Assembly (NCBI GenBank): GCA_024220525.1
Contig: JAMYWO010000201.1
Coordinates: 46,501-74,209 of the forward strand
From: Cochliopodium minus
Taxonomy: Eukaryota; Discosea; Himatismenida; Cochliopodiidae
Direction of reading: 5' to 3'
DNA: 27,709 nucleotides
The notes under the pieces were generated by a model. The model was not told where the DNA came from. It did no database searches and saw nothing but the letters and a program-made list of their open reading frames with translations. How positions within the stretch are numbered: position 1 is the stretch's first letter; every line of letters begins with the position of its first letter. Shown here piece after piece: positions 8,276 through 19,700 of this stretch. The position numbers and the translations under genes were made by a program.

Positions 8276-10411
8276 TCAATATGGTTGAGGACAAAATGGA
8301 AGTCCCAATAAAGAACCATCAATAATCGAATCAAGAAAATGATCATATTCTCTGAATTTAGAAGAATTGGTAAAATCATTAAATTGATTAAAAGGAAAGG
8401 GAGTAACAGAAGAAGGGGTGGAACAATGAGGATCCAATTCCTTCCAAATAGAGCAACCACTTTTCAAGAATTGTTCGATTCTATTTAATTTGATGAGGAG
8501 AGGAGATTGGGAACGTTGGATAAAAACTTTTTTGACATTAAAATGATTTTCAACATTTAGAAAAGCAATTATCAATTTCTTGTACAAAGAAACATATTTT
8601 CTACGAAATAGATATCTGGGAAGTAAATCTACGAGAGTTGGAGGATGAGAAGGAAGAGGGTAAGAATAGATGGATCCCCAAGTAGAAACTTGACAAAGAT
8701 CTCCTTCACATGCTTTTCTTTTCCATGTAGCCTCTCCACCAGGCCAGTTACAGTAGTTATCCCATTCTTTGTTTATGCAACAATTTTCCTTTCTCACACA
8801 AGTAGGTGAAGTAACCAATTCTCCTTTATTGTTGAATGTTCCCCCAACACATTTTCTTCTGCTACAATCTTCCCATTCTCCTTTTCCTTCCCCCCTCAAG
8901 GAGGTCATTCCATTTTTGTTTTTATTACCCTCTCCTTCTTCTTCTCCTCCTTCCATAAGTTTTGCATAAAGATGAGAGTTGCAATCATTATCGTTACAAC
9001 AATGAAGTGTTGTGAGATTGGTTGTTGATTTGTGGCACCATCCTCCCAAACATACTCCCTTAGAACAAAGAGAAGTTGTTAAATAGGAACAGTCAAAATC
9101 TGTGTAACATCTTCTTTCTCCTTTGTTTCCTTTGTTTCCTTTGTGTCCCTTGTGTCCTTTGTGTCCTTTGTGACCTTTATGTCCCTTATCACCTTTATCT
9201 CCTCCCTTGTAACCTTTGTGACCCTTGTGTCCTTTATCACCTTTGTCACCTCCCTTGTAACCTTTATGTCCCTTGTGTCCTTTGTGTCCTTTATCACCTT
9301 TATCTCCTCCCTTGTAACCTTTATGACCCTTGTGTCCTTTGTGCTCTCCATAACCTCCATGATCACCATAACCATCATCATTTCCATCATCATAATCTCC
9401 ATTATTATCCCCATAATCTCCGTGATTTCCGTATCCTCCTTGATTTCCTTGACCATGATCACTATAGTCCCCATTATCACCATAACCTCCGTGATTTCCG
9501 TATCCTCCATGACTTCCGTGACCATTACCTCCATGATTACCATAATCCCCTTCACCATGACCTCCGTGATTTCCGTATCCTCCATGATTTCCGTGACCAT
9601 TACCTCCATGATTTCCATAGTCCCCTGCTCCATAACCTCCATGATTTCCTTGTCCTTGATGTTCTCTATCATCTTCATTATCGTACCTGTCTCCTTTGTT
9701 TCCATGATTTCCATTTCCTTGTTGTCCATGATCTCCTTGATGTTCTCTATCATCTCCTTTGTTAGAATGTTGAGATTGTTTTTTCTTTTTTTCTTTTTCT
9801 TCTTTTTCAATTTGCAATTGTTTCTCCTCTTCCTCTTTTTCTTCTTTTTCTTTTTTTAATTTTTGTTGTAAGAGTTTTTCTTTTTCTTCTCTCTCCTTTT
9901 CTTTTTGTTCTTTCAATAATCTTTGTTTTTCTAATTTTTCTATTTCTTCTTTTTCTTTCTTTTCTCTTTCTAATTTTAGTTTTTTCTCTTTTTCTTCTCT
10001 TTCTTTCTCTTCTTTCTCTTTTTCTTCTTTTTCTTTTTGTTCTTTCAATAATCTTTCTTTTTCCAATTTTTCTTTGAGTTCTTTTTCTTTTTGTTCTTTT
10101 TCTTTTTGGAGTTTCTCTTTTTGTTCATTTTCTTTTCTTTCTTTTTCTTTTTGCTTTGCTATTTCAATTGCTTTAAATTTGTTTCTAGAATCATCTTCAT
10201 CATCATCCTCATCTTCATCATAATCATTTATATCGGTATTTCTTGCATTGAATGGTCTTATATCCTTCACTTGCGAAGATAATTTTAGCTCGCTATCAAA
10301 ATCAATTTCTTCAAATATATTTGATCTCTTCTTCATTACTGGATCAACATCACCATTTGCAAAAATCAATGTTGATAGAAACAATATCAAGAGTACTGTT
10401 AATAACCTCAT
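8276..10411 (-). CDS. Secreted modular protein: coiled coil, GHK-repeat and Cys-rich domains
   Basis: This is a single 711-residue ORF with no intron. It starts with a clear signal peptide (MRLLTVLLILFLSTLIFA, then NGD). Next come an acidic patch (about 60-73), a Lys/Glu-rich predicted coiled coil (about 80-210), a Gly/His/Asn/Asp-rich repeat region (about 215-355), a GHK/GYK/GDK repeat region (about 355-430) and a Cys-rich part (about 432-573) with paired-cysteine patterns such as 'CYTDFDC' and 'HCCNDNDC'. The last about 140 residues have few cysteines and resemble nothing I know. A secreted or wall/matrix protein is the natural inference; the His density suggests metal binding. I cannot assign a family. 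The lack of introns contrasts with all complete neighbours. Confidence 0.85.
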   Translation of the reverse strand: MRLLTVLLILFLSTLIFANGDVDPVMKKRSNIFEEIDFDSELKLSSQVKDIRPFNARNTDINDYDEDEDDDEDDSRNKFKAIEIAKQKEKERKENEQKEKLQKEKEQKEKELKEKLEKERLLKEQKEKEEKEKEEKEREEKEKKLKLEREKKEKEEIEKLEKQRLLKEQKEKEREEKEKLLQQKLKKEKEEKEEEEKQLQIEKEEKEKKKKQSQHSNKGDDREHQGDHGQQGNGNHGNKGDRYDNEDDREHQGQGNHGGYGAGDYGNHGGNGHGNHGGYGNHGGHGEGDYGNHGGNGHGSHGGYGNHGGYGDNGDYSDHGQGNQGGYGNHGDYGDNNGDYDDGNDDGYGDHGGYGEHKGHKGHKGYKGGDKGDKGHKGHKGHKGYKGGDKGDKGHKGHKGYKGGDKGDKGHKGHKGHKGHKGHKGNKGNKGERRCYTDFDCSYLTTSLCSKGVCLGGWCHKSTTNLTTLHCCNDNDCNSHLYAKLMEGGEEEGEGNKNKNGMTSLRGEGKGEWEDCSRRKCVGGTFNNKGELVTSPTCVRKENCCINKEWDNYCNWPGGEATWKRKACEGDLCQVSTWGSIYSYPLPSHPPTLVDLLPRYLFRRKYVSLYKKLIIAFLNVENHFNVKKVFIQRSQSPLLIKLNRIEQFLKSGCSIWKELDPHCSTPSSVTPFPFNQFNDFTNSSKFREYDHFLDSIIDGSLLGLPFCPQPY
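9115..9350 (-). repeat. Gly-His-Lys tandem repeat region
   Basis: The minus strand encodes a chain of Gly-His-Lys, Gly-Tyr-Lys and Gly-Asp-Lys triplets. I count 12 GHK units, arranged around three copies of GYKGGDKGDK. The DNA is a 9-bp-periodic repeat (AAGGGACAC type), which explains long open frames on both strands here. Upstream, a related Gly/Asn/His/Tyr repeat runs to about 9770. Confidence 0.9.
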
Positions 10412-10674: not shown

Positions 10675-12028
10675 TTAAAAATTTAAAAAATTAGATAAGA
10701 AATCATCACTTTCTTTTTCATTCTTGTTGTTGGCAATTTCTTTGTTGTTGAGGGAATTGTTTGTTTTCAAAAGAAAATTGTTGAAATTAATTTCAGAAGT
10801 AAAACTTGGATCACTCGAGATGATCTCTTGTATAAAACTTGAGGAGTCATTTTCCAAATTTAGATTAAAGTTGTTTGGGTTAAATTCGAAAGATTCTATT
10901 TGTTTATGAAGATCTATAAGATTTTGATTGTTTTTTAAAGGACCTCGCATAAAAGGAGGAATTTCTTCTTCTGAATTTAGAAACAAAATAATATCTTTTT
11001 GTAAAATGTATTTAGGGGGAATGTTGCATTCTTCAATGTCCTTTTCATAAAGGGATGTTACTTTTATAGTAGCAAAAGTGGGTAGTTTAGATATTGGGTC
11101 AATAAACCTGTTTTTTTTAAAAGTATAAATTAAAAAGTTTGAAAAAAAAAAGTAAAAAAAAAAAAAAGGAGAAACAAAAGATACACACCCTATTAGATCA
11201 GCATCAATGTGAATAAATTTATTGTTTTGTTGTTTCAAGTACAATTCTTGTTTACATTGGAGTCTGTTAACCATCAAACCACTGATCCTCTCCAATTTGT
11301 ATCCTTTCTTTATATCATTTTCTTCAATGTTTTCTTTCATCTTATTTGAGATGAGATTAGGAAAATAAAAATTGTTCAAAGAATTATAGCCCAAAGCTCT
11401 TAAGAAACTAGGAGACATATCTTTTGATTTTTATCAATTAAATTTTTTTGTTTGAAAATTCTGAAAATTTTACCCTGTATGAATGCGGGTGGTATATAAG
11501 CCTTCCTATCAATTGGGAAGAAAACCTTCATTATCATCCACATATCATCTGTTTCTGAATTAAATGAAATAAATTAACAATACATTGAATACTTTTTCAT
11601 AAATTTATGCTTACTTTCTTGATTTCCAAAATTCCTCTTCATTAATTCTTTTTTGAGTCTTTCATTTTCAATTATTAGTTGATCAATTTTATAATTTAAA
11701 GGATCTGGTAACTTGGATCCACATTGACTGCAAAATTTAGAATCTACATCTGTAATGGTTTCACATTCTTCACATTTTAAATCAATTTCAATGTAGAATC
11801 TTGTTTTTTTATTGTTTTTATCTTTAAATAAGGTAAATTATTTTGATTGAATCTTCTATTATCAATTATTTTCTTCTATTCACCCTGTTTTATTCTATTT
11901 TGTTTTCTCTTTTGATTTATCACACATTCTATTTTTTGTTTGGTACAATTTCCACATGGATTTTGTTTATCACATTTGCGATGATTTTTCTGGCAATTGA
12001 GACATGCTCCTGGCAAAGAAGTATTCAT
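10675..12028 (-). CDS. Zn2Cys6 transcription factor with zinc ribbon and PAS-like domain
   Basis: Five exons (12028-11884, 11821-11615, 11554-11474, 11420-11189, 11107-10675) give 365 residues. An in-frame TAA directly precedes the ATG. Residues 9-35 (CLNCQKNHRKCDKQNPCGNC plus Cys35) form a canonical C-x2-C-x6-C-x5-C-x2-C-x6-C binuclear zinc cluster, a sequence-specific DNA-binding domain. A second C-x2-C-x10-C-x2-C set (Cys65, 68, 79, 82) looks like a zinc ribbon, followed by a short predicted coiled coil ('IDQLIIENERLKKELMK') that could mediate dimerisation. Residues about 123-235 ('PPAFIQDMSPSFLRALGYNS' onward) resemble the PAS region of fungal Ert1/AcuK-type regulators. The Asn/Ser-rich C-terminus could be an activation region. 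The target genes are unknown. Confidence 0.85.
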
Positions 12029-12105
12029 TTAAGATTTTCACTTTTTTTTTTTTTTTTTTCACTGATTTTTTATTTAACAAAATTTGATACATATTTTCAC
12101 AAACA

Positions 12106-13415
12106 TTATTTTAGTTGGTAAAGATAAAAATTGATGGAAGAGTAAATGAAGTCATACTGTGCTTGATTTTGTAATGAATTACATCTCTGGTTTCTAATAG
12201 ATTTCACCAAGTTTGGGATGTTTAAAAGATGATTTAGAGAATTTCTTGAGAAAGGAATCTCCTTTTCTCTCACTCTTAAATAATCAATTATCTGAGCTGC
12301 AAATACAAAGGAAATATAAGTTGCAGTGCGACCAATGCCAGCTAATTAAATTAATTGAAAGATTAATTGATTTCAATTTAAAATAAAACTTTTGAAAGTA
12401 CCTGAACAATGAACAACAATTGGAGAATCTACTTTTTTCATTTCCTTTGATTCATATTTCTTTTGAAGGAGGTACAAGTTGAGGACAGTTTGAGGACTAA
12501 CAACATTTCCATCAGGCCATTTAGTAAAATGAATCTGTGTTATTTCTTTTTTTAAATCTTCTTTTTTGTTAAAAATGATCAATTTTCTAACAACGATTCC
12601 TTCTTTTCCTTCTTCATCTTTTTGTTCGAAATTTTCAAAGAATTGATTTTGGAGAATTATGGAGAATTCTTCTTTTTCTTTTTTGAAAGATATTTCGTCT
12701 CCTGTTTTATTAGGCCAAAATTGTGTCATTTTAATTTTTCCATTTTCTACAAGAGAAGAAAGAGAAATAAGAAGAGAAGAGTTTGAATCCCAAATCATTT
12801 TAAAAAACTCAAACATTGTATTCTCTAAAGGTGCTTGTGTGGCAATAAAAACACTATTGATATCATTCATTATTTTTTCATCATTGAGAGGATGATTATT
12901 TGAATTATTATTATTGAAATTTGTGTTATTTGAATTGTTATGATAGAAAGATTGAAAAGAAATGTAATTTGCATTTATATATAAGTCTGAATTAAACAAA
13001 TCTTCTTGTGTCAAAGGTTTATCTCTTTGAAAGATAAATCTTGTTTCCTCTGTGCATAGAATATCATTGTATCTATTTTTGTTTATGTTCTCAATTTTAC
13101 ATGAAGAGGGATATTTTATCTTCTTTTGTTGATTGCTATACTCGTGAACAAAAGGGATTTGTTTGCAAATTGATTTATATTCTTTTTTCAACAATAATTT
13201 GAGTACATCCCTCGAAAATCCCATCTTCCATTGAGTTGGGATAGTGGGAGAAATGAATAGAGGAAATCCTCCTTCTAATTCAATTTCTTCAAATAATCTG
13301 AATCCATTTGAATACTCCTTAAAATATTATTTTTTTATCTAAACTTGATCAATTAAAATATTACCATTTCGTCTTTGAATGATATTATGTTTGGGCTTTT
13401 GTCTAATTTGAGCAT
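12106..13415 (-). CDS. Classical protein tyrosine phosphatase
   Basis: Three exons (13415-13365, 13317-12402, 12341-12106) give 400 residues. The enzyme removes phosphate from phosphotyrosine. All key elements are visible: the pTyr loop 'NKNRYNDI', 'NANYISF', 'IATQAPLENTMFEFFKMIWD', the WPD loop (284-286, general acid Asp286), and the P-loop HCSAGIGRT with nucleophile Cys321 and Arg327, followed by the Q-loop motif 'NQAQYDFIY'. The last intron splits the P-loop after Ser322. An Asn-rich insertion lies between 'NANYISF' and 'IATQAP'. It lacks TM segments and is probably cytosolic. The gap to the Zn2Cys6 factor downstream is only 77 bp. The upstream region carries repeat copy A, which also occurs upstream of the SAM-OTU-J gene. 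Confidence 0.95.
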
Positions 13416-13487
13416 TTTTTTTTTATTATTTTTGGATTTTTTAATTGTATTTCCGAAACTAAATTCACAAACCAATCAAATATACGT

Positions 13488-13725
13488 TTAAATGACTCAA
13501 TAATGTTTTCCCATTTAATTCGGTACCAAAAATATTTTCGGAAAATCAATTTCAAATTAAACGTTAAATAAAAAAGTTTTGACGAGGATAAAAAAAAGAG
13601 AAAAATTAGACCAAACTTTTTAAATAGTTTCGTTATGGAATAGAAATAAAGATGATCTAAAAACTTTTTGAAAAAAAAATTAGTCCATTTGAAGGAAAGG
13701 GATTGTGTTTGTGGAGTGAGCAAAT
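13488..13725. repeat. Direct repeat, copy A (uninterrupted)
   Basis: This block in the 361-bp gap upstream of the tyrosine phosphatase matches 16329-16746 in the same orientation. Shared segments include 'taaatgactcaa' at one end, a 34-nt identical core (13610-13643 against 16438-16471), 'gaaataaagatgatc', and 'gagtgagcaaat' at the other end. Between them the copies differ by many substitutions and indels, so the duplication is old. A 125-codon minus-strand ORF crosses copy A, but the other copy has single-base indels in that frame, so it is probably not coding. Confidence 0.8.
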
Positions 13726-13776
13726 ATTCAACATTGATTTCGCCAACAATTGATTTAAAAGATTTTAATGATAATA

Positions 13777-16249
13777 TCAAAAAGAACTAATTTTTTTGAA
13801 GAGGTGAGTAAAAATATGTTTGTTTCCTTCATAATTTAGAATAATCTCATAGTACATGTTGATTTTGGTGACCATTGAGTAATCTTTTTTTTCATTATTT
13901 TGTTTGTCTGGATGATGAATTCTCATGAATTTAGTATAAGTTTTTTTAACTTTTTGAAGATCATCATCAACTTTGTGACCAAAAAATAAATAAGCTTCTT
14001 GTACTTGTTCAACTGGATCTTTTTTAAAGTAAGATTGAATCCAATCCATAAATAAACTAGAAATAAAAGTTCCAATTAAACCACCAATTATAATTCCTGG
14101 AAAACCAAACGGTGAGCCTAATAAAGATCCAACCGTACTCAACCCAAGATTTGTCACATTTTTGGCAATAATCCCAATTGTAGATTTTTTAAGTTTGGTT
14201 TCCTGATGTGCCCAATTTTGGTGAATTTCAAAAACAGTGGTAAAAACACAGACACCAATGGCCACATAAAAATTAGCTTTAGCCATTGATAATCCAAAAT
14301 TTAACTTTTGAGACAAACACAAAAGGGCTTGAGGGCTTGCACTAACAATAAAACCAGAAGAAGAAGAAATAAATGTATCCTTGACTATTTCATAAGTGCT
14401 TTTTTTTTCAGTGGCATGGTAATTTTGATAGAGGGATAAAGAGAGGGTAATTAGACCACTTATTAAAGCTCCTTTTGAGCCTTCTTTGAGAATATCATTA
14501 CAGTTTATAAGCTTATTGATAGTGAAAGTCCTGTTTTCTAATTTTTCTTTTGGTAAATTTTTTTGTGCTTGTTGGAGGGCCATTTCTTTGTTTTCTGCAA
14601 TTGTCTTAAAAGTATTCCCATTTGAATCTGTTATCACATATTCTTTTACAGATTTCATATTTCCTAATTTTCTTTTAGCTTCTTTCAAAGCATTTTCATA
14701 AGAACCTTTTGTGGTCACTTCTCTGCCATTTGAATCTTTGAAGACAAATCTTTTTTTGTGAGTTGGAAATTTTTTTCTGTTCTTTCTAACAAATTCAATT
14801 TTGTTTTCAACTTCGATGATTTTTTTCGACTGAAAGTTTACATGATTGGGTACTTTGAATTGTTCATTCACAGTAACAGTTGGGGTTGTGAAGGAGGTAA
14901 AAAAATTTGCTTGAGGGATACTATGATTATCCATTTTTTCAACTTTAAACAATTTTAAGAAGGACTTGTTAACTAGTGGAATAGCAATCAAATCATTCCC
15001 ATTATTTTCCATTCTTATGAGAGCTATCTTCAAAAATGAGATGTTTTGTTCATACATTTCATGATTTTTTTTCACATCTTCTAATATTAATCTTTGAAAA
15101 TATTCAATGAGTTCTTCAATTTGGGGCTTATTAGCCAAGGCAGTAACTACTTCATGTTCTCTGTTGCCTTCAAACATTGAATGTAAAAGTTTTAAGTAGT
15201 TCCATTTGAGCAGATCTTCTTTATTCTTCTCTACTTGTATACCCTTTTCGATTAAATCTTCTATTTTTTCTAAATTCTCATTTATTTCTTCTTCGTATAT
15301 TGTATTATCCAATAATTTTTGTAAATTTCTATTGGCATGATTCATCAAGATCATGTATATATTTTTTTCATTTTTTTGTTCATTTGTGAGCAGACTGAAA
15401 TATTGGATGTTCAAAAGATTTCCAATTCTGATAGTATTTTTATAATCTTCACAATAAAATTCTTTGGTACATTTTTTGTCATTTGAAGAAGCAGTGTAGA
15501 CGAGAATTTTCAACTTGAATATTTCAGTGGTGGCTATCAAGGTCAATTCATCTCCACAGATTACTCCATTTTCTATATTTTTGCAATAAAACTCGAAATT
15601 TTTGTCATCTTTTCACTCTTGATATATCTCATCAAGTTTTTTTTGAATTTGGACATTATTTTTATTCTCCTTTAACCATTTACTAATTTTGGATCTTAAT
15701 TCTTCATTTGAGAATTTTTCTTTTTGGTAAATTTGGAGTTGTAATCTGATGGCATCAAATTGACTGTCATTATCTTCCTTGGTATACTCATCTAAAAAAA
15801 GCTCTTCTTTTGATAAACTATCAACTAATCTCTTTTTATATCCCTCTATGGAATTATCAATTGAAATAATAACAGGTGCTTTGTTTGAAATTAGGTCTTT
15901 TTCATTATTATCGGATATTTGTTCTTCAAGCAATCTTTTTTTCAAATTATTTATTCCTCTCATTAATTTTTTTCTTTTAAATGGATCGTCACAGAATATC
16001 TTCCAATGGTCCAATATTTCTTCGTTAATATCGCAAATATCTTCATAAGTTTCACCTTTATAATATTATTTTATTTTTATTTTTATTTTATGAAAATTAT
16101 TATTTTATGATTATTTTTTTTATTTTTTGATTATTACAAGTTTGATCGATAAAAATTCTATAAAGATGATTCATCTTCAGACTTGAAAGAAAAGATATGA
16201 CATCGGTGTATTCATATTCTTCAATTTTAAGGTTTAATTTTTCTTCCAT
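13777..16249 (-). pseudogene. SAM - OTU-like - J-domain protein gene with in-frame TGA
   Basis: Exons 16249-16138 and 16055-13777 make one frame of 796 codons broken only by TGA at 15615-15613 (codon 185). Residues 10-77 look like a SAM domain ('YTDVISFLSSLKMNHLYRIF', 'INEEILDHWKIF', 'KLMRGINNLKK'). From 130 the pattern is OTU peptidase, but D-G-N-C is replaced by D132-N-D-Ser135, and the C-terminal HY motif reads 'NIQYFSLL' (Gln for His), so no peptidase activity is expected. The OTU pattern continues across the TGA into 'CGDELTLIATTEIF'. Two about 37-residue repeats ('FVFKDSNG', 'YVITDSNG') follow at about 471-543, then a Gly-rich hydrophobic region (about 560-710) and a C-terminal J domain with HPD intact. 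No in-phase intron removes the TGA. It may be a pseudogene, a split gene or readthrough; the 611 open codons after the stop argue against old decay. Confidence 0.7.
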
Positions 16250-16328
16250 TTTTACTACTAGTTTTATTTTTTTTTTATTATTTATATTTATTTTAATTTT
16301 TTCTAATATAATTATAATTTTTAAACAC

Positions 16329-16746
16329 TTTAAATGACTCAAAACACATTTAATCAGGTACCAAAAAAAATTTTAGAGAATTCTAATTAAAAGTTATATA
16401 TGATATTTAATGGAGGATCAGAAAAGAGAAAAATGATACCAAACTTTTTAAATAGTTTCGTTATGGAATAGCAGAGCACCCGGCAAATATTATCTTTAAG
16501 CAGAAGTCAGTATATATAATAAATTATAAAATAAAAAAATACAGAATAACTTTATATATTCATATTAATAATCCAATTCTTATGAGCCTCTGGATCAAAA
16601 AATCCTTTACATATATACAAAATCACCTATACAGAATCTAAATATGAGTTTTGATCTCAATTTAAGAATTTTTCGGGTGCTGTGGAAATAAAGATGATCA
16701 ATTGGTCTATTTGTAGGAAAGGGAATGTTTTGTAGAGTGAGCAAAT
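16329..16746. repeat. Direct repeat, copy B (interrupted by an insertion)
   Basis: This is the second copy of the block at 13488-13725. It lies about 80 bp upstream of the SAM-OTU-J start codon; copy A lies about 73 bp upstream of the phosphatase start codon. The two copies therefore sit in equivalent promoter-proximal positions and also bracket the SAM-OTU-J gene. Without the 16472-16684 insertion, copy B would be about 205 bp. Together with its flanks it fills the 541-bp gap between that gene and beta-mannosidase. Confidence 0.8.
16472..16684. mobile_element. 213-bp insertion with inverted-repeat ends (MITE-like)
   Basis: Relative to copy A, which reads 'ggaatagaaataaag' without a gap, copy B has 213 extra bases between 'ggaatag' and 'gaaataaag'. 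The extra segment starts CAGAGCACCCG and ends CGGGTGCTGTG, inverted repeats of 11 bp with one mismatch, and it has no ORF. Only one base (g) appears duplicated at the target, so a standard target-site duplication is not visible. The ends and size fit a non-autonomous DNA transposon relic; its superfamily is not clear. The alternative, that copy A lost the element precisely, is less likely. Confidence 0.6.
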
Positions 16747-16790
16747 CTTTAAAATTAATTTAACATTTATTTTTTATTTTTCAGTCCAAA

Positions 16791-19700
16791 TTAATTTCTT
16801 TCAAATGTATCTGTAAGAGTAGAAAGTCTTAAAGAAGACTCAAAAAGAGAAACAGAAAAAGGAGACCAACCATTAAAAGAAAGAGTTTTATTTTCATTCT
16901 TTTTAAAAAAATAAAAAATGAGTAAAAATAAAGTAAAATTTAATTTGTTTAATGTAAGAATCAAACCTTCTTCAAAAGAAAACCATTATCGTTCCAAGTA
17001 CCATTAAAACTTGTTTCCAAAAAAACGAAAGGAGCTATTTGATCTGAAATTAGTGTTACTTTCGCACTGCTAGAACTTGTTGGAACAACTTGAACAATTT
17101 TAATGTTTGCTTTCAATAGATAAGCCTTTTTTTTTGTTTTTTTTTTTGTAAAAAAATAAAGTTGTGGACAAAAAAAATACATTAAAAGATTACATTTTTG
17201 AAAGGAGTCAAAAACCATTCATTTTCTGACAATAAATTTGATTTGTTATCATAAATTTTAGTATCAATAAAACAATAAGAGATGTTATTGCAGTAAGGAG
17301 AAACTAATTTAGGTATTCTAAACCAAAAAAAAATAATAAAATATGAAAAGAATGCTAAATAAAAATTTTTAAAATTTAAAAATATGATAAAAAATTAAAA
17401 AGAAACAAAGATTAATACGTAGAGGAAAAAATTTGTTTGGATTGCAAGGGTTGAATCTCAAAAGAAGAGGGATAAGAATGCAAAAGAGAACCATTCCAAT
17501 GGTAAATGGAAATGAGAAGAGAAGCTTCTGTCAAACTTGTCTGTTTGTCATTAATAACGTAAACATAAAAATTTTCTTTTTCCCATTCTTGATAAGGACT
17601 CACTAATATATCTCCAAAAAATTTCTTTACATGGTAATGTAACATTTTCCACCTTTTTTGGAATTTTTTAATTTTTTATTTTATATTATATATTTTTTAT
17701 TTTTTTTTTTTTTTACCTTCCACTGTACTCAAGAGATGACCTTTTTATTTAAATTAAATCATCAATAAAGAGTTTTTTTTGATAAAAAAAGAATTTTTTT
17801 GTACCATGTAGGTGCTATTTTAAAAAAGGGATGTAAAGAAAGATTTTATTTTATTTTTTTATTTTTTTTTTACCTTGCCAAATAGAATTTAATCTTTTCA
17901 ATAAAATTTAATTATAAAGTAGATTTAAAAAAATTAATTAAAAATGAAAAAGAAACATACTGCCAATACAATGCACCCATGGTAAAATAGTTAGCTCTAT
18001 TTCTTCTATAAGCCTCTTTTTTTTATTTTTTTTAATTATTTATTTTCAAATTTTTTAATTTTTATTTTTTTTCTACCAGTTTCAGATTTGATACACATTG
18101 TTTGGAGGACTTGAGAGAGATAGATCCATTTTGAAAAATTCTCTTTTTTGGTGGGGTTGGGGTAATTAGGAGAAAAAGGATTAAAATGCATTTTCATTTG
18201 TTCTTCTATTTGTAATGTTCCATTTGGATGATGTTGTCCTTTTTAAAATTGAATTTTTTTTGAAATGAATTCGATTTTTTTTAACATTAAATTTTAAAAA
18301 AATTAATATTTTTAAAATTAAGTATTTTTATCAAAAATTTTATTTATTTTTTAAAAAAAGGAATTTTACTTTCTATCATGAGAGGGCTTGTTTGATTCCA
18401 ATCCTCCTCTTTAGTTCGTTTTTTTAAAAAATTATATTAAATAAAAATAAAAATAAAAATTAAAAATGTATTACCAATGGTAACAGATTCCCAAGTGTAA
18501 ATTGATGGAAAGCTTTGCCAACCATACTTATTTTCGTTCAATTTTTTTTTTTTTTGTAAAATTTAATATACTTCAATATTGATTCAAAAAAAAAAAAGGT
18601 ATACCTCTGATACAAATCTACTGGTTGGGTAATTGGAAAGATTTAAGCAATTATAGGTGTACTTTTTTTAAAAAATTAAAATTTAAAAAAAGTTTAAATT
18701 TTAGTTAGCAAATATTTTACTTCATAAAAATGAGTGTCTCCTGTTCACACATAATTTTTTTGGGTAAATTAATTTAGTTTGAATAGAAATTTTTTTTTTT
18801 TAAAAAAAAGATACCGATGGTGTTATTATAGGGATTTCCCTTTGGAATTTAATTTTTTTAAAAAATATATATTAAAAGGTTAAACTACTCACCCATTCTC
18901 CTACATAAGGATTCTCTGATAAAATACTAATTTTTTTTTAAAATTATTAATTAATAAATAAAAAAAAAATCAAAAAGGTACCCGTTGGAAGGAGAGGATG
19001 GCCAAAAAGGTCTTGTTGTATCAGATGCTCTTACTGCAGGATGTACGACATTATAATATACTAAGATTCATTTATTTGATGAATTTTTTTTTTAAAATTA
19101 ATGAATTAAATCAAATGAATTAAATTAATTTATTATTAATAAATAATATGATAAAATTGATATTTTTTTACAATTTACATAATCAGCAACATATCTTATT
19201 TTTAAAAAATTATTGAATAATGAGTATTGAAATGTATTGTCCAATTTTAAAAAGAAAGCAAAAACCTTCTTGGGTTTGCAATAGTCACCTTTAAAAAAAA
19301 GAGATCAAATTAAATACTTTATATTATATTTGAAATGTTCCAAATTTTTTACATTGTACCAATTTAAAGCAGCCTAAAAAAAAAAATAGTTTATTTTATA
19401 ATTCATTTGTTAAATTCATTTGTTTAAAGTTTTAAAATTATTTTTTAAATAACAAAAGTTTTTTCAAATTTTTTTAAAAAAAAGTAAATACCTCATTTTC
19501 ATTGGAACCAGACCATAAAATGATGGAAACGTGATGAGCTAATCTAGAAACTTGGTATTCTATTTCTATTCTAACGTCTTCTAAGAAATCAGTGCTAACA
19601 GGGTACATTGCTTTATTTCATGTTTTTTAAATAAAAATCAAACAAAAATTTTTTCAATTTTTAATTTTTAATTTTTAATTTTTAATTCATAATTTTAATT

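Follow-up and report, generated by a model that had tools for sequence, protein, structure and literature searches.

Encoded on the reverse strand of the window, a stretch of 27,709 nucleotides from Cochliopodium minus, is a gene in which known domains are newly combined and whose reading frame is interrupted by a TGA at codon 185. From the N- to the C-terminus it specifies a SAM domain, an OTU domain, a helical stretch, two DSNG repeats, a Gly-rich hydrophobic stretch, and a J domain, an order that is unusual but real. Our confidence is evenly balanced on the reading that we favor, namely that the locus represents the remains, a null allele, or a mis-called copy of a single ancestral protist gene for an Hsp70 recruiter. 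As the surrounding sequence is still coding-like and open, the TGA most likely reflects either a nonsense mutation of recent origin or an error in the consensus. The features of the gene are as follows.

13777-16249, reverse strand: whole gene (exon 1, 16249-16138; intron, 16137-16056; exon 2, 16055-13777)
15940-16207, reverse strand: SAM domain, residues 15-76, encoded on both sides of the intron (SAM_2 Pfam match)
15382-15774, reverse strand: OTU domain, residues about 132-262, predicted from its residues to be catalytically dead (Pfam scores of 30.5 and 29.1 bits, alignment, model)
15763-15765, reverse strand: codon for Ser135, which occupies the site of the nucleophilic Cys of OTUs (translation and alignment)
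15613-15615, reverse strand: in-frame TGA, codon 185, within the OTU domain (translation and OTU search of the genome)
15403-15405, reverse strand: codon for Gln255, where OTUs have their catalytic His (translation and alignment)
14545-14751, reverse strand: two DSNG repeats, residues 473-541 (DNA repeat family D16; each beta-beta-alpha in a low-confidence model)
14038-14493, reverse strand: Gly/Ser-rich hydrophobic region, residues 559-710 (hydropathy; GxxxG motifs starting at residues 680, 684, 691, and 695)
13834-13989, reverse strand: J domain, residues 727-778, with the HPD motif at residues 752-754 (13914-13906) (DnaJ Pfam match and motif)

The coordinates, strand, and start codon of the original prediction were all reproduced. 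Exon 1 begins with the ATG at 16249, and exon 2 closes with a TGA at 13777. The 82-nucleotide intron between them, the boundaries of which are predicted from the SAM match, runs from GT to AG and is 94% AT in a window with an A+T content of 74.8%. When codon 185 is read through, the frame comprises 796 codons. The SAM_2, OTU, and DnaJ models each score above the Pfam cut-off in at least one of the pieces tested, and these scores, together with the translation, bear out the proposed succession of SAM, OTU, DSNG, Gly-rich, and HPD-containing J regions.

The SAM-like domain anticipated at the N-terminus is indeed a SAM domain, with a score against SAM_2 (PF07647) of 24.1 bits for the domain alone and 21.2 bits in a longer piece, the cut-off being 20.5. 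The genome of the organism, searched as an assembly of 44.65 Mb in 598 contigs, is rich in such domains, with 70 SAM_2 matches at E ≤ 0.01. The OTU domain (PF02338) is recognized only if the frame is read across the TGA, at 29.1 bits, or 30.5 bits in the genome search, versus a cut-off of 23.3. The portion 3' of the TGA alone scores 19.6 bits, and the portion upstream of it, taken alone, gave no OTU match in Pfam. A profile constructed from three OTUs of the same genome, that of the window included, identified OTUD5 in the PDB at 4.6e-13. By itself the read-through SAM-OTU part retrieved no PDB chain at E values up to 1, a result that counts against the favored reading. A model of the OTU domain built from a six-row alignment (mean pLDDT of 66.8, pTM of 0.63) was compared with known structures. 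As judged by Foldseek, the top rows are OTU domains, with a best E value of 4.2e-4, and VIA-align superimposes the model onto yeast Otu2 with a Z-score of 12.6 and a deviation of 3.6 Å over 129 residues. Note that five of the six alignment rows are OTU exons from other genes of the genome, and thus the model, unlike the Pfam match, is not fully independent of the OTU assignment. The OTU fold that had been proposed is nonetheless the common outcome of the Pfam score, the OTUD5 profile match, and the two structural comparisons.

Two other OTUs from the genome were aligned with the window gene to assign the residues of the putative active site. The nucleophilic Cys of an active OTU cysteine peptidase is replaced by Ser135 and the catalytic His by Gln255, in agreement with the original prediction of Ser135 and of a Gln at the His position. 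On the basis of these replacements it is very unlikely that the domain functions as a peptidase, and the lack of peptidase activity suggested earlier accords with its sequence. Six other OTU loci were found in the genome, five by the Pfam OTU search (L002, L003, L004, L006, and L007) and one by another search (L012), and the Cys is retained in all six. The window gene is thus the odd one of the seven OTU loci found. The catalytic His is visible in L002, L004, and L007, and the 3' exons of L003, L006, and L012 were not assembled. L012 (G000:C152:18442-18672), an additional OTU gene in which a GDC motif is present, was missed by the Pfam search.

The original prediction was silent on the TGA at codon 185, and the frame is not continuous as it had been described. 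An uninterrupted frame, as would be expected for a functional single gene, is therefore lacking; ordinary translation of the assembled sequence ends after residue 184, which also weighs against the favored reading. Downstream of the TGA the frame is open for 611 codons without a single stop, whereas the other two frames of the same strand hold 49 and 57. In 200 Markov windows the longest open run was 189 codons, and a run of 611 thus exceeds what chance would produce. The position-specific GC content is coding-like on either side of the TGA, at 0.38/0.19/0.23 and 0.37/0.26/0.26, respectively, and is flat in both of the flanking stretches that were analyzed. Since OTU similarity and coding-like composition extend across the TGA, a border between two genes at this position was rejected. 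These observations, along with the 611 open codons, argue that the locus was probably one gene until recently. The earlier description of one gene thus stands as a likely ancestry, given that the OTU similarity straddles the stop, but not for the present copy with its TGA.

A related proposal holds that the TGA arose as a consensus or assembly error and that the real gene is intact. This explanation, which overlaps with the favored one rather than excluding it, is possible if doubtful. It agrees with a defect confined to one codon in an otherwise clean frame of 796 codons, but the difference is of the substitution type with no accompanying frameshift.

The loss of two catalytic residues and the presence of a TGA in a core domain would also be expected of a plain decaying pseudogene, in which selection was relaxed, the active site was lost, the TGA followed, and nothing functional is now made. 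In keeping with this, no second copy was found in the genome. Indeed, the Cys and His losses could be early decay, and this was counted against the favored reading. Yet no frameshift occurs over about 2.3 kb, the HPD motif is retained, the composition is coding-like on either side of the TGA, and 611 codons have stayed open in a stretch where random substitution should create a new stop about once in every 18 changes. Any decay, or any loss of function, must consequently be recent, and simple decay is judged to be a rather unlikely account.

Alternatively, the locus may give rise to two products, with an internal ATG at Met272 (15354) initiating a protein of 525 residues that contains the helical, DSNG, Gly-rich, and J regions, and with the 184 residues upstream of the TGA yielding a SAM protein or nothing. 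Met272 is the first in-frame ATG past the TGA, it sits just behind the end of the OTU domain, and the frame downstream is wholly open. The OTU similarity and coding-like composition persist, however, from the TGA to Met272, and such an arrangement is considered quite unlikely.

Changes in decoding or splicing were also considered. A genome-wide change of the code in which TGA specifies an amino acid was rejected inasmuch as conserved matches of the genome seldom contain TGA as their sole kind of stop. TGA is the only type of stop inside one of 139 kinase matches, as counted by eye in a tally that drew on scores for 123 of the 846 initial candidates, and inside one of 29 Hsp70 matches. Both of the Hsp70 matches that cover the entire model are free of internal stops. 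A bypass of the TGA in vivo, whether by readthrough or by an atypical in-frame splice such as one at 15683-15609, is highly improbable. Twenty-four in-frame GT-AG pairs of 30-300 nucleotides in the stretch tested would remove the TGA without introducing a new stop, and seven of these begin with GTAAAT, the donor found in the intron of another OTU gene. The shortest of the seven, GTAAAT..GAAAAG, spans 75 nucleotides. Its AT content of 74.7% lies close to that of the exon (71.1%) rather than to the 83.5-93.9% observed for five introns placed by protein similarity. Moreover, its removal would delete an OTU helix, common to the other OTU genes, that carries the WL-EN motif. An ordinary intron spanning the TGA is not favored. 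A search of positions 12000-17500 with the Rfam families gave no match at the gathering threshold, which likewise argues against a bypass.

The region that follows the OTU domain and the helical stretch begins with the DSNG repeats. They were initially described as units of about 37 residues, and two units are indeed present, with starts 36 residues apart. In an ungapped test seven identities were counted in 32 positions, and 24 of 20,000 shuffles reached the score, although the register is imperfect. When the protein was compared with itself without gaps, the DSNG pair scored 29, but several low-complexity pairs scored higher, up to 41. Among phage families, phrog_22171, whose function is unknown, matches the repeats at 1.8e-4.

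The Gly/Ser-rich region was originally described as a membrane anchor. With Kyte-Doolittle windows of 19 residues, the highest mean value is 1.84 at residues 689-707, followed by 1.53 at residues 628-646. Among the eight highest-ranking distinct windows, just one exceeds 1.6, the value customarily taken to mark a transmembrane segment, and a membrane association, which is suggested by hydrophobicity, is thus plausible but weaker than first stated. A PHROG search of the C-terminal piece placed phrog_6922 on this region at 6.1e-6. The same family matched Bacillus subtilis among the controls, and the match on the Gly-rich region is likely driven by composition. Neither phrog_6922 nor phrog_22171 matched a second place in the genome.

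The J domain at the C-terminus, also part of the original prediction, reaches 28.4 bits against DnaJ (PF00226) as an 87-residue piece, just above the cut-off of 27.8. In longer pieces it scores 24.7 and 25.9 bits, both below the cut-off, and this marginal score counts against the favored reading. The HPD motif is intact. The best solved relative by sequence was matched at an E value of only 0.009, which likewise counts against the favored reading. A single-sequence AlphaFold model of residues 443-796 was left out of the fold search because of its mean pLDDT of 38.9.

Relatives were sought in the genome itself and in GTDB contigs, IMG/VR, phages, and plasmids, where the contig scans, seeded on exact short peptides, reach close relatives only. 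For the C-terminal part neither a relative nor a second copy was found in the genome. In IMG/VR five pattern stretches were retrieved, none of which was confirmed, and a further scan returned none. Two scans of the GTDB contigs yielded eight and 83 stretches, again with none confirmed. One phage search was empty, two others gave one and four records with E values of 1 to 9, and no plasmid match was observed. When the 611 residues beyond the TGA were compared with PDB sequences, nothing fell under an E value of 0.07, and the best rows, belonging to CRISPR Csm3, are taken as chance. The OTU profile retrieved 199 stretches from IMG/VR without a confirmed relative. The order of SAM, dead OTU, DSNG repeats, Gly-rich stretch, and J domain was not seen in the portions of the literature covered by our search. 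That no relative with the fused order was found was counted against the favored reading.

Bracketing the gene is a flanking segment of about 330-500 nucleotides that is present twice in direct orientation.

16266-16761, reverse strand: direct repeat copy 1, in the 5' flank of the gene, outer limits approximate (DNA repeat families D6, D8, D10, D11, and D13)
13414-13740, reverse strand: direct repeat copy 2, just downstream of the gene and upstream of a tyrosine phosphatase gene, limits approximate (repeat comparison)

The core of the repeat displays 96% identity over 50 nucleotides and contains an exact 30-mer, the like of which was seen in none of 100 shuffles of the window. Outside of the core the two copies agree in blocks separated by a large gap, and the outer ends are AT-rich and uncertain. 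A 27-nucleotide piece of the core, searched with up to three mismatches allowed, has no third site in the assembly. The duplicated flanks suggest a local event, whether duplication or insertion, and not membership in a repeat family. The neighboring tyrosine phosphatase gene (12109-13326, reverse strand; Y_phosphatase, 1.6e-35) carries a 60-nucleotide intron inside its active-site motif. Farther along, a frame of 711 residues at 8279-10411, reverse strand, contains collagen-like repeats (Collagen, 1.7e-4, below the cut-off), and a strong base skew is observed within it at 9001-10000. The start of the window, 27-1050, is occupied by short-unit repeats such as MSRV.. and EKKRG.. in the translated frames.

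A single ancestral gene, for which the OTU similarity across the TGA, the coding-like GC content on both sides, and the absence of stops in 611 codons were counted, would have encoded a protein of the following kind. The SAM domain may have mediated self-association or docking to a partner, and the dead OTU fold would have served as a protein-binding module rather than as a protease. Through its Gly-rich hydrophobic stretch the protein would have lain at or within a membrane, and its C-terminal, HPD-bearing J domain would have stimulated Hsp70 on whatever was held by the N-terminal part. The occurrence of full-length Hsp70 matches in the genome was counted in favor of an Hsp70 recruiter. That the locus still encodes a working membrane-bound pseudo-deubiquitinase that passes clients to Hsp70 in cis, with the frame maintained by an in-frame splice or by readthrough, is improbable. 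In such a fusion of deubiquitinase fold and J domain, a single polypeptide would both contain a binder from the ubiquitin system and recruit Hsp70. The gene would provide a testable case if an intact allele or relative exists; otherwise the locus would represent a recently lost gene.

By profile and by fold, respectively, the closest matches to the OTU domain are OTUD5, also known as DUBA, and yeast Otu2. Both are active cysteine peptidases, whereas the window gene has Ser in place of Cys and Gln in place of His. In DNAJB2, a J-domain protein that carries UIMs, a J domain is likewise fused to a segment associated with ubiquitin biology. The window gene differs in that the putative link to ubiquitin is an OTU fold rather than UIMs and in that its J domain is C-terminal. 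DjlA and Pam18/Tim14 are membrane J proteins in which a hydrophobic segment precedes a C-terminal J domain, an arrangement shared by the window gene, which in addition carries a long SAM-OTU N-terminal half. The likeness to Pam18 is one of architecture only. The DjlA model gave a weak match (7.6e-5, 22.4 bits), and membership in that family was rejected given its cut-off of 162 bits.

With respect to a dead OTU fold, the closest known system is human OTULINL, or FAM105A, a membrane-associated pseudo-deubiquitinase whose cellular role is listed as an open question in the review sections consulted (PMC7862380). As in the window gene, for which membrane association is only plausible, its OTU fold lacks a working catalytic triad (PMC7862380). 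According to the same sections OTULINL does not bind ubiquitin, and the original description of the window protein as ubiquitin-recognizing is not supported (PMC7862380). The residues lost also differ, with Asp139, His350, and His352 affected in OTULINL and the Cys (now Ser135) and His (now Gln255) in the window gene (PMC7862380). Finally, whereas neither a SAM nor a J domain is mentioned for OTULINL in those sections (PMC7862380), the window gene has both.
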